Source: Bidens hawaiensis
Lineage: Eukaryota > Streptophyta > Magnoliopsida > Asterales > Asteraceae
Length of the DNA: 64,000 nucleotides
Direction of reading: 5' to 3'
NCBI GenBank assembly: GCA_021521415.1
Contig: JAIQDT010007370.1
Location: 56,591-120,590 of the forward strand
Shown here: piece after piece, positions 50,272 to 61,638 of the stretch
Layout: each line of letters opens with the position of its first letter
Position numbering within the stretch: the first letter of the stretch is position 1
Position numbers and translations under genes: made by a program
Notes under the pieces: generated by a model
The model's database searches: none
The model's input: the letters and a program-made list of their open reading frames with translations, nothing else
Told to the model about the DNA's origin: nothing

Positions 50272-52202
50272 TGTAAGGCCCCGAACCCAGGGAACCCCAC
50301 AGTTGGTAATCATTCAAAACACTTTCAAAATAATTAAACTTAAAAACAATTCTTTTCATTAAAACTAACATCTCAGAGTTTAATTCAGCAGAAAACATAA
50401 ATAATAAAATAAGTTCCCAAAACCCAAGAATTTTGCCCAAAATCATCATAGTTATCTTTAAATAAAAACTTTTAAAAATAAATGTTTAATAGTAAAACTC
50501 CAATTCCCGTATGCCCTTCACCGTCCAAGTAGCTTCGTGCATGTCCAAGCGATAAGGCATCCTCTTCCTTACCTGAAATTCACACTAACATGCACACAAA
50601 GTCAGCTTGAGCTGAGTGAGTTCAAGTTTTAAGTAAATAATATCATTAAATAATAGTTATGATAGTCATACCAAAAGTTTTAAAACATAAAAGGGTACAT
50701 CCATCAAATCATCATTACCGAAACTAAACATCCTCATACATACATATACAAAATGTATATGTAAACATCCTTTCAATTACATCTCTATATATATCATAGT
50801 ATATATATATAACATCCACATATAACATCAGGGTCTAGTAAACGTACAACCCAAACACGTAACATCAGTGCATGCAAACACAAAGTAGGCATACACAACA
50901 TCAGTAGTCGAAACGACTACAACAGCGCCAGATATAGGCAAGGTAATAATGTATATACATATATATATATAGTTAACATCCCAAGGCCTACCATATGTTA
51001 GCAAGGTTATTTAAATTCGTTTAAAACATTTCATCATGTAAGAAAACACTTAGGTGAGCATGCTAGCCCAAAAGTAAAAAGAGTAAAAAGGGCATCATGA
51101 ACTCACCTGAAATCAATCGAACTTCTATAACGAGCTAGGAAATTCCTAAGTGCATGATCACAAGCAAGGGCCTGTAAATTATACACAACACGTTACTAAC
51201 CTTGACCGTAAGAACACTCTTGCCTAATCGGCCGTTCAAGCCCAACGCTTTAGCCCCAAGGCCCAACACTTGGCCCAAGGCCCAACAACTTGGCCCAAGG
51301 CCCAAAGATAATCAAATCGGGTCGAATGCGCATGTAATAAACCTTAAAACCATTTGTTAAACGAATCAGCCCCGAATGGACCAAATTCCATTTTAAATCT
51401 TTTTATTCATCAAGATTATGTCACTCGAGTTGATAGGGTTGACGGTTCCTTTTTACAACTCTAACTTTAACGTTTAAACGAAAATTCGCGCACCGCCGAC
51501 TCGATTGACAACGCACTAACCACAACAGCCCCGAGCATCAAAAAAATAATTTATCCACATCCCTTAAACCCCCCTAGGTCTGTACAAACTGATTCGGTCG
51601 GTCACCCGATCAATTAACGCATCAAGCTCAACAATTTTCAATTCTATACCCGATAAACCCTAGTTTTCGAATTAAAATCGATTGATCGACCTAAACACCT
51701 CCAATGACCACGAAATTTTAATATGATGCAAATGCCATACCTGGGGATCTTTCTACACTGTAAACTCTAATTGTTACCCACGGGAAGTGGGTCAATTACA
51801 CCTTGGCCGAAAATCTGTCCAGCGAAAACTTACGGCAAAATTGAGCATCAAAACGATTAGGGGTGAATAAAAAGAGTGTTGGGGTTTGTAGTACATACCT
51901 TGAACTACTTCTAGGAGCTTGGAATCGATTAAAAAGTCGAAGCAAGGAAGGGAGGGGGTGGCTACTTGCGGCCGATCGCTGCTGCTGCTCTAGGGTTTAG
52001 GATTTTTTTTTATTAGTGTTATATTATAAAACTTTTTCATTCTAGCCCCCGGAAAATAATAATAATGCAACTTGGAAGAAATGCTAAGCGATTAGACATA
52101 CCGGGATGACGTAAACGCTTCTGAGGAACGTCGGATAAATCCCGAGAATTATACCTACTCTACAATCTTTAATTCTTGAAACCAGAATTAACGGGCGTTA
52201 CA
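50272..52202 (-). repeat. 3' LTR of element G
   Basis: 1,931 bp. It differs from the 5' LTR at roughly 4% of positions in the first 340 bp by eye, and has about three minisatellite units at 51244-51304 against about eight. Confidence 0.93.
51244..51304 (-). repeat. GGGCC minisatellite, short allele
   Basis: About three units of AAGGCCCAACACTTGGCCC. Same array as 60586-60745 and 5844-6027. Confidence 0.9.
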
Positions 52203-52239: not shown

Positions 52240-55200
52240 CCGATGCAACCGGAACTACTACGGATAATGCTTCCTCATCTCGTCTTCTGACTCCCAAGTA
52301 GCCTCGAACCCCCTACGGTGCCTCCACTACACCTTCACCTGCCTAACCACCTTATTTCTCAGCCGCCTCTCCTGACGGTCAAGGATAGCAATCGGTTGCT
52401 CAACGTAGTTCAGCTTACTATCGAGTTCGATATCATCAAGAGGCACATGGGCCTCTTCATCCGCCAGGCATTTCCTCAGATGGGACACGTGAAAAGTAGG
52501 ATGAATCCTCGCGAGCTCCTCGGGCAATTCCAGCCTATATGCTACCTCACCGACTCGGGCTAATATACGGAACCGGCCAATAAACCTCGGACTGAGCTTC
52601 CCCCTCTTACGAAAACGAATAATGCCCTTCCAGGGAGAAACTTTTAACATAACCCGATCCCCAGCCTCAAACACAATATGCCTTCGCCATTTATCTGCAT
52701 AAGACTTATGACGATCCTGCGCGGCCTTCATAAAGGCTTTAATCTTGTCGAGTTTCTCAGTCGTAGCCTCGACCACCTCCAAACTACCCAACTGCTTTTG
52801 ACCAATGGAACCCCAACAGACTGAAGTCCTACACCTCCTACCATACAACATATCAAACGGTGGCATCCCAATCGTGGCGTGATAACTGTTATTATACGAG
52901 AACTCTACCAACGGTAAGTGACGGTCCCAACTACCACCAAAGTCTATAACGTAAGCCCGCAACATATCTTCGAGAGTCTGAACGGTCCTCTTGGACTGAC
53001 CATCCGTCTGCGGGTGATAAGCAGTACTGATGAGGAGTTTGGTGCCCATCTCCTCGTGAAACCTTTTCCAAAACCTGGAGGTGAAACGTGTATCCCTATC
53101 TGAAACAATAGATACTAGCACCCCGGGCCTAGAGACGATCTCATGAATAAACACATCGGCCAGCTGCTCAGAATTAAAAGTCCCTCGACTCGGCAAGAAA
53201 TGAGCGCTCTTGGTCAATCTATCCACGATTACCCAAATGGTGTCATAATTACCCCTAGGAGTACGAGGCAACTTAGTCACGAAATCCATAGTAAGATGCT
53301 CCCATTTCCACTCAGGTATTTCCAACGGCTGAAGTTTCCCAAATGGCCTGTGATGCTCGGCCTTAACTTGTAGACACGTCAAGCACTTACTCACGTACTG
53401 AGCCACCTCAAAATTCATCGCAGGCCACCAATAATTCTTTTTTAAGTCTTGGTACATTTTGGCCGCGCCGGGTGAATAGAATAGCGCAACTTGTGTGCCT
53501 CATCCAAAATTTTATCTCTGAATCCCCCATACCCTGGTACCCATAAGCGACCATCCTTATATTTCACCCTGTCACCGACGTCTTCCAACAATTTCTCCTG
53601 ACCCCAAACACGTTCTGACATAATCCATTCCACCTGCAAAGCTTCATTCTGGACGTTGGCTATTTGTTTCAAAATGTCGGGTTTGAGAATAAGCTGGTAG
53701 AATTTCACACGAATAAGTTTTGGTCTCTCCTTCCGGCTTAACGCGTCGGCCACCACGTTAGCCTTACCCGGATGGTACATGATCTCCAGATCGTAGTCCT
53801 TAATCAACTCCAACCATCGACGCTGTCACATATTTAGTTCCTTTTGCTCGAAGAAATAATTTAAGCTCTTATGATCGGTATAAATAACTCAAGGAACACT
53901 GTACAAATAATGTCTCCACAACTTAAGCGCAAACACCACCGCCGGTAGCTCCAAATCGTGGGTAGGATAATTCGCCCCATGAAGCTTCAATTGCCGTGAG
54001 GCATAAGCGATGACTCGGCCTCGCTGCATCAAAACACAACCAAGCCCCTGATAAGAGGCTTCAGAATAAACCACTAGATCGTCGGCGCCATCGGGTAGAG
54101 CTAAAATCGGGGCATGCGTCAACCTATTCTTCAACTCGAGAAAAGCCTCCTCCTGCTCAGTACCCCAAACGAACTTAACACTCTTCTTAGTCAACTTGGT
54201 TAGCGAAGAAGCAATTTTCGAAAAGTCGGGAATAAAGCGGCAGTAATACCCCGCCAAGCCCATAAAGCTACGGATTTCAGATGGAGACTTAGGAGACTCC
54301 CAATCATTCACGGCTTCCACCTTTGCAGGATCAACCAAAATACCACTCGAGTTAATAACATGACCCAAGAATTGAACCTCACGCAACCAGAAGGAACACT
54401 TAGAAAATTTTGCATACAACTTGTTCTTTCGCAGAGCCTCCAACACTTCCCTGAGATGACCGGCGTGATCGGATTCACTTTTAGAGTACACAAAAATGTC
54501 GTCGATGAACACAATAACCAAACGATCGAGCATCGGTCTACACACCCGGTTCATAAGATCCATGAACGCAGCCGGTGCGTTGGTCAAACCGAAAGACATC
54601 GCCAGAAATTCGTAATGTCCATAACGAGTGCAGAAGGCAGTCTTAGGAATATCCTCCTCCCGAATCTTGAGCTGATGATACCCCGACCTAAGGTCGATCT
54701 TCGAGAACCAATTGGCCCCTTGGAGTTGATCAAATAAGTCGTCGATCCTCGGGAGCGGGTACCGATTTTTAACAGTGAGCTTATTCAACTCACGGTAGTC
54801 AATGCACATTCGCATGCTACCGTCCTTCTTCTTAACGAACAAGACCGGGGCACCCCAAGGCGAAATGCTCGGTCGAATAAAGCCCTTATCGAGCAAGTCT
54901 TCCAACTGAGCCATAAGTTCCTTCATTTCATTCGGCGCTAGGCGTAGGGAGCTCGGGCAACGGGTTTGGCGCCCGGTACAAGGTCTATCTGGAACTCGAC
55001 CTCGCGATCCGGCGGCACATCTGACAAATCATCTGGAAATACATCCGGGAAATCCCGAACAATAGGAACATCACCGACGGTAGCCACCTCGGTATTCACA
55101 TTCATAGCATACGCCAGATACGCCCCGCACCCCCGCTGCATCAACTTTCCCGCCTTAAGCATGGATATAATATGTGGCGTCGCAACATTCCGATCACCGA

Positions 55201-55393: not shown

Positions 55394-57675
55394 TGTGACA
55401 TTTGAGCCAAAACAAGGTACACCTCAGTACGTATTTACCGATTAAGCAAATAAACGCCTTTTGCGTAACAAATGAACGATTAACCGAACGGGTCGAGTTA
55501 TGACCCAGATATCTCGGGGGGCCATCTATAAGTGATAGACGATCAATACAAGCTAAAATATTAGAAATATGGTCTTATTTTGATAGCAAACAAGTTAAAC
55601 GAAAATATACTCGTTTAACTACCCGCTATAGATTTAAACGCGAAAGATAGTTACAAACCAAGCATTGTATCATCCGTTAAGCCGAAAAAGACTTACCAAA
55701 CACTTACTTGAAATGATTTAAGCGATCCATGAAAATATTTTTGATTTTTACAAACATATAGTATGTTTTTACAATTTTACACAAAACTGGCCGAAAAACA
55801 CTTGTTTTCACGCTGTTTAACTCACCCGATAAGTTTTTCGCGCCAAAAACCGAACCCGAACTACATTTGGACCGGGCTTTTCGTATTTGGGCTTGAGAAA
55901 CCAGATCATTGGGCCAAAACAGCCCATCATGGGCCCAATCTTTCTTCCGATCGGCCAGCCCAACCCACCCCCCATTTTTTTTATAAAACTTATTCCACAA
56001 GCTTGGTTATTCATTTTTGTTTATAAAAGTTGAGGTCCAAGCAGCTGCAAGCAGAATTTCCAGAAATCCTTCAAACCCTAAGGTAAGGAGTTTAAATAAG
56101 TAGCTTTTGTACTTGTATAACCTTGATTAATACCATAAAAACATGTCTTAGTTACTAAAAATCATTCCTAACCATGTAAAAATCCCAAAAATGGTCCATA
56201 AACATGTTTTGATCATACACATGGTAAGGAACCTGTTTTGATAGTTTTTTTTGGCCATAAACACGGATTAAAGGGTTGGAACGGCGTTTTTACGGTTCAA
56301 AAGTTCGTTTTTGTGCACTAGCCGAAACCCTAGGTTAAGGGCTGTTATGTTGATAAAAAATTTCTTGGTTTGTGATATAGGACTTGTACCTTGCTTGCTT
56401 AGAAGCACAAGAACCTGAAAACTTGATTAAAAAGTCGGAAACGAGCTAAACCCGCTAAGGTAATGCCGAAAACACTCGCTTAAGGGCTGTTTAGGTTAAG
56501 GTTATGATGTGCATATTTTTAGACCTTGAAATTTTTCAGGGACATCAGGGACCATGTCATTGAGTCCCTGTTCAAATTTGGTAATTTTTTGACAATCCGA
56601 GAATATTTGGCGAATTTATTACCGAATTGGGACGTTTATTTGGGAAAAATAGCTAAAATACTTCAAAAATTTTGAAATTTTTCTGGGAACTCAGATTTGA
56701 TGTATTTTGATCACATATAAATTTTGGGATCATTTGGAGAAGTTTAAAGGTGTTTTGTATATATGCGTTCGTTTGAATTTTTATAGCCGAATTTTGGCCG
56801 AAAAGAATATCGCACGAACTTTTTACATTTTGGAATTGATACAAGTTGATTTGGGACATGATTTAAGCATTCAGGAATTTTTGTGGAATTTTTGGAAATT
56901 GTTTGGGGTAAACGGACGATTTTCAGGCGAATTATAGCTGATAAAATAAATTTTTATAAATTGAGAAATCAGTAAATAAATTCCAAAAATATTTTTATAA
57001 AAATCTACATATTTTAATTGATAAGTGGCTAAATTTTCATAATTTAATGATTAACGGTTAATTAATTATGCTAATTTGAATATTAAAAAAATTCAGTTTT
57101 TATAAAAACCGGCAAGTTCGTGACTAACGAACCTGCGAGAATATCAAAAAAACAAGAGTGATCAAAAATCATATTTTTGGACTAATTTTGTAAAAACAAA
57201 CTTTTCTATGAAAAACCTGGACAATCATGTCCCAGGCTTCACTGTCAAGGCTTCACTGTAGCTTAGCATAATTACATCATTTACATACATACTTATTTCA
57301 TGATTACAAGTGTTGACTTGTGAATACTCATTACTGTTTTCTTGAAACTCGTGAAACTCACCAACTCTAGTAGTTGACCCGTTTTAAACTGCTTTTCAGG
57401 TGTACCTAAATCAGAATGATTTGGTGATCTGTTATTTGCCCAAGGTGTGCGGTTGATGCTATGTGAATAGAGGCAAGGGTGTTAGTAGTAAAAACGTATA
57501 GTTAACGAACTAGTTTTGTTTGTATCACCTAGACTGTAAAACAATGATAGGACAAAGAAATGTAATATAATATAAATTAGTTTGTAATGTTTCTTTATAA
57601 TCAATGTGTTGATACCAGATGTGTCTGTTACACTCCCGTTTTACGCTTCCGCATTGTGCTAGTCGGGGTGTGACA
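55394..57675 (+). mobile_element. Solo LTR 4 with TSD GACAC, inside the G protease
   Basis: 2,282 bp, TGTGACATTTGAG to CGGGGTGTGACA, with GACAC at 55389-55393 and 57676-57680. It splits the protease between GKSVSV and SRAIQG. Same family as solo LTR 3 (reverse). Stem-loop CAACT/AGTTG follows ACTCAC at 57357-57377. Confidence 0.93.
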
Positions 57676-57838
57676 GACACGGACACGGATTTTCCTACGG
57701 CGACCTCAACCTCAAACCCATCGACCATGCGCTCGGGTGATTTATTCAACAAGGAACAGAAAGCGGTAGACACAAAACTCCTACTAGTGCCCGAATCAAA
57801 TAAAATTGAAGCCTGTAACTCATCAAGTAGGAAAGTAC
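57676..57838 (-). pseudogene. Gypsy protease N-terminal part of G
   Basis: Minus strand, reads TFLLDELQASILFDSGTSRS and onwards; DSG is the aspartic protease active-site motif. It ends at the inserted solo LTR. The start joins gag across the intron-like segment 57943-57839. Confidence 0.85.
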
Positions 57839-57943
57839 CTGGGACGATATTACACTACTGCTTAGCTACACGGTTAACACATACGATTTCAAAGGAACAA
57901 GAAATTATAATGGTGGAATGAAAGCTAAATAAGGAAAAAGTAC
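57839..57943 (-). other. 105-bp intron-like segment at the Gag/protease junction
   Basis: On the minus strand it begins GTACTTTTTCC after TCAG and ends CGTCCCAG before GTACTTTCC. Removing it joins gag and protease in frame (DVVSG then TFLLDEL). If kept, translation meets two stops at about 57848. It is T-rich, and GCTAAGC near the 3' end could serve as a branch point. CAGGTACTTT occurs at both borders, so the segment may have arisen by a local duplication or by an insertion with that target repeat. Confidence 0.6.
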
Positions 57944-59285
57944 CTGAGACCACATCCGCATCCTCTTTCGCTTCCTTCTTGGAGATGTTGAAGGCCCTCG
58001 CCCTGGCCTTTGGCTTCTCATCCGTCTTCCCCCTTGAGGAAGTCCCCTGCCCGGACCCCCCCCCCCCCCCCCCGCCTTACTGGAAGGACAGTTTGATGCC
58101 AAGTGACCCGAACCCTTACAGCGGAAACAGGTCAATGTCGGACACTCGAAATGGGGGTGTCCTACCTTATCACAACGAAAACAAGTGCCAGACCCAATCC
58201 TACATTCCCCCTTGTGGAGCTTCCCGCACTTCTTGCAATTACCAGACGCTGTATCCCTTTTAAACTCAGAAGTCTCAGTCTTTACCCTTTACTCAGATGA
58301 GCTAAAATTGTTCCCTCCTGGCCGCTTACCGTACGAATTTGAGTTCCATGCCCTCGTATTCTCGGTAGGCGGTAATTTCTCCCTCTGATCATAAAGCGTA
58401 CCTGCTAGAGTGACCACCGAATGAAAAGAGTTCAAGTCGGGTAGGTCAACACACCCCTACGGATATCCACCGGAAGTCCCTTCACGTACTTCTTAATCCT
58501 CTTGGCTTCGGGAGTAACCAAGTCGGGACATAAACGAGCCATCTTGTTAAACTTGGTGGTATACTCCCGATGCGACATAGTACCAGCCTCCATGGTCAAG
58601 AATTCCTGTTCTATCTTATCTAATTCATGCGGAGGACAAAACTGATTGAGAACCAATTTCTTCAACTCATCCCACGTCATCCTCCTAATCGCACGATAAC
58701 CCATAGCTTGCGCCAAGTTATCCCACCAACATAGTGCCTCGGAACGAAACGAGGCAGTAGCATAAGTCACCATATCATCCCCCTTGCACTTACTAACCCT
58801 CAGAACAGCCTCCATCTCCCTCACCCACTGATGTGCTGCCAATGCATCTTTAGTACCATCGAAAGAAGGGGGTCGCACTTCTTAAAGACACCATACGAGC
58901 AACCCCGGGTCGATACACTAACTGTCCGTGCCTCATCTTCATCCCCACTCGGCACATACACTTCCTCTTCCTCTTCGACCTGTACCTCCTTACTCTTCCT
59001 TCCCCTATCCGAACCCTTTCCAACCAGTGACTCCTCCATGGCCCTAACGGCCACAGCAACGATCTCAGGAATGGCGCTATGGAGCACCTGGTAAACCTCA
59101 TCCGCTATAGCCGCGCGTATAGCAGGATCTAAGGCGGGGTTATCCCCCTCCTCATTAATCGGGGTGTCCTGCTGGGAAAAAGGAATCTCACTCTCGGCTT
59201 CAGCACGTGGCTTACGACCACGACCACAACCACGAACACTAGAACCACCTCTCTTAGCTGCTTGAGTATTAACTATGACTTATCC
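57944..59285 (-). pseudogene. Gypsy gag of element G with three zinc knuckles
   Basis: The reading starts about 59268, where an ATA sits in place of the expected ATG (VNTQAAKRGGSS). An acidic stretch follows near 58970. The Retrotrans_gag core at 58878-58432 has WVREMEAVL, CWWDNL and DELKKLVLNQF. Then the knuckles CKKCGKLHKGEC, CFRCDKVGHPHFEC and CFRCKGSGHLASNC (about 58245-58093), followed by an 18-G run (58073-58056) and a basic tail AFNISKKEAKEDADVV. Breaks: shift near 58875, shift near 58440, TAA at about 58290, and a one-base frame change at the G run. The product would be the capsid/nucleocapsid. Confidence 0.85.
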
Positions 59286-59610
59286 CTACAAAGACAGAAT
59301 TTTAAATATGGTTAGGTACAAGTGGCATTTAGAACATGTAAAGTAAGGGTAAACTGCTAATGACGTTGATCAAGTGTAATTAGTCGTTTACTTTACCCGC
59401 CCGTCCTAATCACCCCTTGCCCCTATCCACATTAGCCTTCTATCTAACACTTAAACAGTTAATCATATACTGGAAACTTTTAAACTTAATGGAATGACTA
59501 ATAATCTAAAGTTACCTCTTAGCGTGCAGCTACTTGTGGTGGGCATACCGGTCTCTTTTCTTACAGTTCGAGTCCAAGCATTTGGGGATGCTCGGATCCC
59601 TCGAACCAAG
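59286..59610 (-). other. Leader of element G
   Basis: Untranslated region between PBS and gag, no ORF of note. Confidence 0.65.
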
Positions 59611-59622
59611 GCTCTGATACCA
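59611..59622 (-). other. Primer-binding site of element G
   Basis: Minus strand TGGTATCAGAGC, an exact complement of the initiator Met tRNA, three bases inside the 5' LTR. Confidence 0.92.
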
Positions 59623-59625
59623 TCT

Positions 59626-61638
59626 TGTAAGGCCCCGAACCCCGGGAACCCCACAGTTGGTAATCATTTAAAACACTTTCAAAATAATTAAACTTAAAAA
59701 CTATTCTTTTCATTGAAACCAACATCTCAGAGTATAATTCCGCGGAAAACATAAATAATAAAATAAGTTCCCAAAACCCAAGAATTTTGCCCAAAATCAA
59801 CATAGTTATCTTTAAATAAAAACTTTTAAAAATAAATGTTTAATAGTAAAACTCCAATTCCCGTATGCCCTTCACCTTCCAAGTAGCTTCGTGCACGTCC
59901 AAGCGATAAGGCATCCTCTTCCTAACCTGAAATTCACACTAACATGCACACAAAGTCAGCTTAAGCTGAGTGAGTTCAAGTTTTAGGTAAATAATATCAT
60001 TAAATAATAGTTATGATAGTCATACCAAAAGTTTTAAAACGTAAAAGGGTACATCCATAAAATCATCATTACCGAAACTAAACATCCTCATACATACATA
60101 TACAAAATGTAATGTAAACATCCTTTCAATTACATCTCTATATATATCACAGTATATATATAACATTAGGGTCGAGCAAACGTACAACCTAAACACGTAA
60201 CATCAGTGCATGCAAACACAAAGTAGGCATACACAACATCAGTAGTCGAAACGACTACAACATCGCCAGATATAGGCCAGACAATAATGTATATACATAT
60301 ATATATATAGTTAACATCCTAAGGCCTACCATATGTTAGCAAGCCTATATAAATTCGTTTAAAACATTTCTTCATGTAAGAAAACACTTAGGTGTGCATG
60401 CTAGCCCAAAAGTAAAAAGAGTAAAAAGGGCATCATGAACTCACCTGAAATCAATCGAACACCTGCAACGAGCTAGGAAATTCCTAAGTGCACGATCACA
60501 AGCATAGGCCTGTAAATTATACACAACACGTTACTAACCTAGACCGTAAGAACACTCTTGCCTAATGGGCCGTTCAAGCCCAACGCTTTGGCCCCAAGGC
60601 CCAACACTTGGCCCAAGGCCCAACACTTGGCCCAAGGCCCAACAACTTGGCCCAAGGCCCAAAACTTGGCCCAAGGCCCAACACTTGGCCCAAGGTCCAA
60701 CAACTTGGCCCAAGGCCCAACAGCTTGACCCAAGGCCCAAGGATAATCAAATCGGGTCGAATGCGCGTGTAATAAACCTTAAAACCATTTGTTAAAAGAA
60801 TCAGCCCCGAATGGACCAAATTCCATTTTAAATCTTTTTATTCATCAAGATTATGTCACCCGAGTTGATAGGGTTGACGGTTCCTTTTTACAACTCTTAC
60901 TTTAACGTTTAAACGAAAATTCGCGCACCACCGACTCGATTGACGAAGCACTAACCACAACAGCCCCGAGCATCAAAAAAATAATTTTTCCACAGCCCTT
61001 AAATCCCCCTAGGGCTGTACAAACTGATTCGGTTGGTCACCCGATCAATTAACGCATCAAGCTCAACAATTTGCAATTCTACACCCGATAAACCTTAGTT
61101 TTCGAACTAAAATTGATTGACCGACCTAAACACCTCCAATGACCACGAAATTTTAATATGATGTAAATTCCATACCTGGGGATATTTCTACACTGGAAAC
61201 TCTAATTTTTATCCACCGGAAGTGGGTCAATTACACCTTGGGTGAAAATCTGTCCAACGAAAAGTATCGACAAAATTGAGCATCAAAACGATTAGGGGTG
61301 AACAAAAAGAGTGTTGGGGTTTGTAGTACATTCCTTGAACTACTTCTAGGAGCTTGGAATCGATCAAAAAGTCAAAGAAAGGAAGGGAGGGGGTGGCTAC
61401 TTGCGGCCGATCGCTGTTGCTGCTCTAGGGTTTAGGATTTTTTTTTTGTTTAGTGTTATATTATAAAACTTTTTCATTCTAGCCCCCGGAAAATAATAAT
61501 TATGCAACTTGGAAGAAATGCTAAGCGATTAGACGTATCGGGATGATGTAAAGGCTTCTAAGGAACGTCGGATAAATCCCGAGAATTATACCTACTCTAC
61601 AATCTTTAATTCTTGAAACCGGAATTAACGGCGTTACA
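59626..61638 (-). repeat. 5' LTR of element G
   Basis: 2,013 bp, starting TGTAACGCCG (minus) and ending GGGCCTTACA. It holds AGGTGAGTT (minus, 60446-60438), the stem-loop (59954-59977) and the minisatellite at 60586-60745. Confidence 0.93.
60586..60745 (-). repeat. GGGCC minisatellite, long allele
   Basis: About eight units of AAGGCCCAACACTTGGCCC, 19-20 bp each. Long apparent frames on both strands are by-products. Confidence 0.92.

Follow-up and report, generated by a model that had tools for sequence, protein, structure and literature searches.

Plant long terminal repeat (LTR) retrotransposons are described in a 2025 review as generally intronless, the notable exceptions named there being Ogre and EVADE (PMC12786077). 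Ogre, a gypsy element of the Tat lineage, carries an intron in its coding region, and the full polyprotein can be made from those of its transcripts that are spliced (PMC6317226, PMC12786077). BARE1, a Ty1/copia element of barley, has a 104-nt facultative T-rich GT-AG intron at the end of gag and start of pr (PMC3735527), and in the shGAG system of EVADE (ATCOPIA93, Ty1/copia, Arabidopsis) transcripts are alternatively spliced after gag into two RNAs (PMC8892269, PMC12786077). Introners are introns derived from transposable elements, and in Florenciella there are families for which the insertion site supplies both splice sites; no evidence for Introners in land plants is reported (PMC9860276). 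In the titles and abstract openings of papers listed from the open-licence literature no chromovirus intron between Gag and protease was described, which is no proof of absence. Here a 105-bp block at that junction is reported from a gypsy element of Bidens hawaiensis, located on the minus strand of a 64,000-nt stretch of contig JAIQDT010007370.1 (the window). The block is probably a spliceosomal GT-AG intron that would act as a divider between Gag and Gag-Pol. It has a fixed place and fixed borders, changes as non-coding sequence does, is absent from a sister family, is precisely missing from copies placed within the block-bearing tree and is skipped by a gene model.

The Bidens element resembles Ogre as a plant gypsy element with an intron in the coding region, the splicing of which would enable the full polyprotein. 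The Ogre-type intron is located between protease and reverse transcriptase (RT), whereas the Bidens block precedes the protease, so that the Bidens protease too would depend on splicing. With BARE1 it shares a small T-rich segment at the same junction and alternative splicing, here putative, that separates Gag from Gag-Pol. In BARE1, which belongs to the other superfamily, splicing leads to a Gag-only RNA and retention to Gag-Pol (PMC3735527); the Bidens element would work in the opposite sense, judged from its sequence alone, because a stop lies inside the block and retention gives Gag only. EVADE is alike in forming two RNAs by alternative splicing after gag, but there the protease domain is spliced out, early polyadenylation is coupled to this and Gag is made from the spliced RNA. 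Introners are alike in insertion with a short target duplication, but they occur as many copies in many genes, whereas the Bidens intron would lie within one retrotransposon family and spread with it. Plant genomes commonly contain gypsy chromoviruses, and the excess of Gag over Pol in elements with a single open reading frame (ORF) is an old question. A small intron exactly at Gag/protease in a high-copy chromovirus-like family would, if true, add an arrangement that works in reverse to that of BARE1, and would offer a case of intron gain with the empty site kept in a sister family and with intron-free copies for testing.

The block reads GTACTTTTTCC...ATCGTCCCAG on the minus strand and is positioned between DVVS-G and TFLLDELQASILFDSG (Table 1). 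Its place and length, and the direct repeat CAGGTACTTT at its borders, were recovered as described in a first-pass annotation of the window. The T-richness noted there held on the upstream side: from the majority letters of 40 copies, T content was 41.9% in the block and 15.2% in the preceding 105 bp, and with 38.9% in the following 105 bp the contrast is one-sided. Two stops upon retention had been noted; this applies to the frame carried into the block by the zinc-knuckle ORF, whereas the protease frame contains one (TAG). All three frames carry stops within the block in 40/40 copies. GCTAAG, which resembles a branch-site motif, lies inside GTAGCTAAG, a stretch common to the majority letters of three subfamilies. 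Removal of the block was also said to restore a reading from gag to protease. In the window copy this continuity is limited to sequence downstream of an 18-G run in gag; the gag and protease frames part at that run, so that the two are not continuous after block removal. The longest G run in gag ranged from 5 to 18 across the 40 copies. In 7/40 copies a single frame, broken only within the block, extended over at least 100 codons before it and at least 240 codons after it, while most copies read had a break in some frame. The frame split at the G run also appears to account for the end of annotated protein P0001.

The genome was searched with the block, and the best 40 of 1384 first-look candidates were scored (39 fetched, and the window). 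All 40 matched at 96-100% identity over the block and were flanked by gag/protease. An independent search by protease sequence listed 40 matches, from which 30 copies, window included, were cut out, and the block was present in 30/30. On these two results the block is not a random insertion unique to this dead copy, a possibility raised alongside the first-pass annotation. For comparison, 89 rows were reduced to 85 distinct copies by merging four duplicates, leaving rows L001-L008 and L048 unused as they represent the same places as other rows. The block was present in 81 of these and absent from four; this is not a frequency, because 39 copies and the window were chosen by block and the four block-free copies were picked for that lack. 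At least 36 of the 81 were found through their block. Block-bearing copies started with GT in 80/81 cases and ended with AG in 78/81; a protease-frame stop of variable position was present within the block in 79/81. Lengths were 105 nt (70 copies), 93 nt (3), 103 nt (2), 104 nt (3) and 106 nt (3). The 93-nt blocks, in L057, L062 and L075, share the lack of a GACCGTGTAGCT stretch, which includes part of the branch-site-like motif.

The divergence of the block was compared with that of the flanking codons between a subfamily A (5 copies around contig C610), the main family C (61 copies) and a third subfamily B; group C omitted L014, L034, L036, L037, L090, L095 and the window. Block-chosen copies were unusable for comparing block with flank conservation (0.009 versus 0.046 and 0.049), because they had been selected by the block. 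Between A and C the block differed at 34/104 positions and codon positions 1, 2 and 3 at 7/90, 5/91 and 26/90, respectively. In Fisher's test of the block, p was 2.1e-8 against positions 1+2 (12/181) and 0.64 against position 3. Averaged over pairs, divergence was 0.341 for the block and 0.322, 0.112 and 0.084 for positions 3, 1 and 2. The block is thus non-coding, as far as these alignments go, since it changes as fast as position 3 and far faster than positions 1+2, and its divergence pattern is that expected of an intron. Conservation was good in the first ten block columns and, close to the acceptor, in the GTAGCTAAG-AGTAGT stretch, and columns 11-60 contained 23/36 of the differences or gaps.

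These data bear on a rival proposal in which the block serves as a coding spacer in frame and readthrough of the TAG produces Gag-Pol without splicing. A length of 105 nt (3 x 35) in 70/81 copies and a single protease-frame TAG in most copies read would suit it. Differences within the block showed no codon periodicity (9/35, 12/34 and 13/35 by phase), and the stop is placed elsewhere in subfamily A: the translated block reads GTFPNTSL and a stop in A and GTFSLFSFHSTVIISCSFEIVCVDRVAKQ and a stop in C, with neither tail nor stop position conserved. Block length was not a multiple of 3 in 8/81 copies nor, judged by protein, in sunflower, and RNA structure around the block was unremarkable (z 0.37). 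A coding spacer with readthrough was rejected on block lengths and divergence, and is considered very improbable.

Relatives were utilized to establish whether the junction is continuous elsewhere. Five copies of a sister Bidens family read CAGGTAC uninterrupted at the DNA level, as GATGTTGT(G/C)TCAGGTAC... (DVVSG-TF), and gene model P0022 aligned to its sister-family locus over 432 residues at 100% without a break. Proteins from Smallanthus, Cynara, Juglans and other plants read through the junction; these, and the other Bidens models P0030 and P0034, are known here from proteins alone. By these sequences the block is an addition, absent from relatives in which the junction is continuous, as the first-pass annotation had proposed from related plant proteins. 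The CAG^GTAC site (the caret marks the splice point) probably predates the block, because it is already present in the block-free sister copies, and duplication of that site would yield both splice sites. The suggestion that an intron was gained from the AGGT-containing repeat fits this empty site. A fuller history can be offered tentatively: a short insert with target duplication in CAG^GTAC may have been an instant intron, both splice sites coming from the duplicated target, which was adopted as a Gag / Gag-Pol switch and kept since before the Bidens/sunflower split while its interior turned over, block-free copies being fossils of spliced RNA.

The sunflower (Helianthus annuus) part of this history comes from protein P0003, annotated as a transcription-factor interactor, a Gag model with a tail after DVVSG like that of a retained intron. 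It reads DVVSG-IKRGISFVYSYFFLLAKKKKIHVILFQ-VLS, with 26 residues from DVVSG to QVLS followed by a stop. In the window the acceptor region CAG GTA CTT TCC reads QVLS in that out-of-phase frame; copies with an exon 2 starting GTACC read otherwise. A block running from the GT of the GGT codon to CAG would be 83 nt in P0003, and exon 2 would be reached out of frame because 83 is not a multiple of 3. This suggests that in sunflower a distinct block of 83 nt occupies this point and is retained in P0003. When viral contigs were searched with P0003, 0 relatives were found among 93 pattern matches.

Signs of block removal were found in a gene model and in genomic copies. The NCBI model P0002 (LOC143529630, Bidens hawaiensis) skips the block: it includes the 40 residues encoded to each side of a 105-nt block in C610, separated by a single residue, and lacks the block itself. 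At least four copies lack the block: 4 of 90 scored, and the same four among 97 scored, beside 9 copies of sister-type families. From the other 86 scored copies 16 were fetched, and the block was present in 16/16. Three of the four block-free copies were gapless in the alignment; the fourth, L081, has rearranged gag immediately upstream and a long end branch. In L080 the last base before the junction is A, not G.

Trees were built without the block columns, and L034, L036 and L037 were omitted from the tree with an outgroup. The block-free pattern required 4 changes, rising to 5 once the outgroup was included, and the block-free copies were placed inside block-bearing ones. Constraining block-bearing rows to one clade worsened the log-likelihood (lnL) by 47.2 (approximately unbiased test, p-AU 0.011), and forcing the four block-free copies together worsened it by 48 (p-AU 0.039). 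L080 and L081 possibly represent one loss, as their joint tree was slightly better (p-AU 0.51). Bootstrap values were unsettled also without the outgroup. The reading of block-free copies as ancestral relics was rejected by these tests, though copies may swap pieces as they are reverse transcribed, and support is weak at many forks. Such copies would be explained if spliced RNA were occasionally reverse transcribed. For these copies alone, deletion between the CAGGTAC repeats is a rival of real but lesser weight: its product would be identical in sequence, over a shared run of 7 to 11 bp. It would have to account for two to four independent losses that share their borders, which speaks against it but is compatible with repeat deletion.

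The presence of block-free copies would also suit a never-spliced insertion, in which block-bearing copies make Gag only and depend for mobilisation in trans on other elements, block-free copies among them, as would the breaks carried by most copies. In codons that lie for the most part downstream of the block, positions 1+2 are conserved and position 3 is drifting, from which it follows that protease has been translated from block-bearing lineages. Together with the omission of the block from P0002 and the different apparent block at the same point in sunflower, this makes a never-spliced insertion most unlikely.

The preferred explanation is that an intron was gained at the gag/protease junction of a Tekay/Del-like gypsy family and has been retained in the lineage since. 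Packaged RNA would keep the block, and Gag would stop in frame within it, which in the main family falls some 28 codons beyond the junction; in spliced RNA, Gag would continue into protease-RT-RNase H-integrase. Partial splicing would then split transcripts between Gag and Gag-Pol. The block in 30/30 protease-chosen copies implies that the RNA that is reverse transcribed is as a rule unspliced. As positions 1+2 of the flanking, mostly protease, codons are held, a form joining Gag to Pol must exist, and splicing would supply exactly that. From these points we infer actual splicing, its partial extent and its effect on protein ratio. Taken alone, the intron is very likely, and the role in setting the Gag to Gag-Pol ratio moderately so. 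An ordinary, near-constitutive intron would likewise suit the comparative data, as any spliced intron would: Pol would need splicing, the extent of which would set no ratio, and unspliced RNA would persist via packaging or export, 30/30 retention demanding only that the usual template be unspliced. Block inheritance nevertheless implies that unspliced RNA reaches the particle, and such RNA makes Gag only; near-constitutive splicing is considered unlikely.

Several observations count against an intron acting as a Gag / Gag-Pol divider. The donor GTACTT is weak relative to the donor consensus GTAAGT. The exact 105-nt length of 70/81 blocks, a multiple of 3, also fits a coding spacer, and the stops alone prove no selection, because 35 T-rich codons would probably include an in-frame stop by chance (estimated at ∼0.8). 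The B versus C comparison was less clear (block 10/105, position 3 16/90, positions 1+2 5/181, p = 0.024) and would not be decisive alone; between A and B the block (29/104) exceeded position 3 (14/90) with p = 0.056. Model P0002 may derive from homology and not from reads, and P0003 is known from its protein alone, the codons of which permit a GTFL exon 2 start but also many others. In the outgroup tree bootstrap was unsettled, 35 of the 84 inner branches stayed open, and the base composition of the five sister rows departed from that of the others. Deletion between the 7-11-bp repeats gives the same block-free sequence as splicing.

Table 1. Features of the gypsy element and its Gag/protease block in the window (caret, splice point).
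Feature	Position	Strand	Details
Whole gypsy element	61638 to 50272	-	LTRs, primer binding site, target duplication, Pfam domains
5' LTR, 2013 bp, TGTAACGCC...CTTACA	59626..61638	-	AAGAA duplication at 61643-61639
Primer binding site TGGTATCAGAGCC	59610..59622	-	3' of 5' LTR
Gag capsid-like ORF	58432..58881	-	Retrotrans_gag PF03732, Ty3_capsid PF19259
Gag C-terminal ORF with zinc knuckle	57905..58288	-	PF00098; enters block out of protease frame
18-G run	58056..58073	-	gag and protease frames part here in window copy
Upstream CAGGTACTTT copy, 10 bp	57937..57946	-	includes donor CAG^GTACTT
Putative intron, 105 bp	57839..57943	-	phase 1 (G^GT codon); GT 57943-57942, AG 57840-57839
GCTAAG, branch-site-like	57861..57866	-	inside GTAGCTAAG; branch-site role putative
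TAG stop in protease frame	57855..57857	-	within block
Downstream CAGGTACTTT copy, 10 bp	57832..57841	-	includes acceptor CAG^GT
Protease ORF	57854-57525	-	frame differs from zinc-knuckle ORF
Protease start, GTFLLDELQASILFDSG...	57676..57838	-	RVP_2 PF08284; cut by nested insert
Nested insert in protease, ∼2.28 kb, TGTCACACC...TGTCACA	55394..57675	-	GTGTC either side
RT + RNase H	53889..55028	-	PF00078, PF17919, PF17917
Integrase-region ORF	52327..53499	-	PF17921, SH3_Tf2-1 PF24626; rve PF00665 under cut-off
3' LTR, 1931 bp	50272..52202	-	AAGAA duplication at 50271-50267

The surrounding element has the hallmarks of an LTR retrotransposon, namely an LTR pair, a 5-bp AAGAA target duplication and a primer binding site, which we take to be of the initiator-Met-tRNA type. 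The LTRs were 95.3% identical (1824/1914 aligned). Pfam domains on the minus strand were in the order Gag capsid, zinc knuckle, protease, RT, RNase H, integrase zinc-binding domain. The order gag - protease - RT - RNase H - integrase is that of a Tekay/Del-type chromovirus, with rve itself below cut-off. The integrase-region ORF is followed by a tail, containing a stop, which looks chromodomain-like by eye; two pieces of the tail beyond integrase gave no chromodomain match in Pfam. Domain order and tail together tentatively suggest a Tekay/Del-type chromovirus. The window copy is dead in several ways, with the frame change at the 18-G run, the 2.28-kb insert in protease and further breaks. The nested insert is probably a solo LTR, and stretches resembling it at ∼80% identity were located between 38374 and 42061. 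Both LTRs contain a tandem repeat of a 19-20-bp unit, GCCCAACACTTGGCCCAAG, at 60578-60740 and 51255-51305, with copy numbers of about 8.3 and 2.6, respectively.
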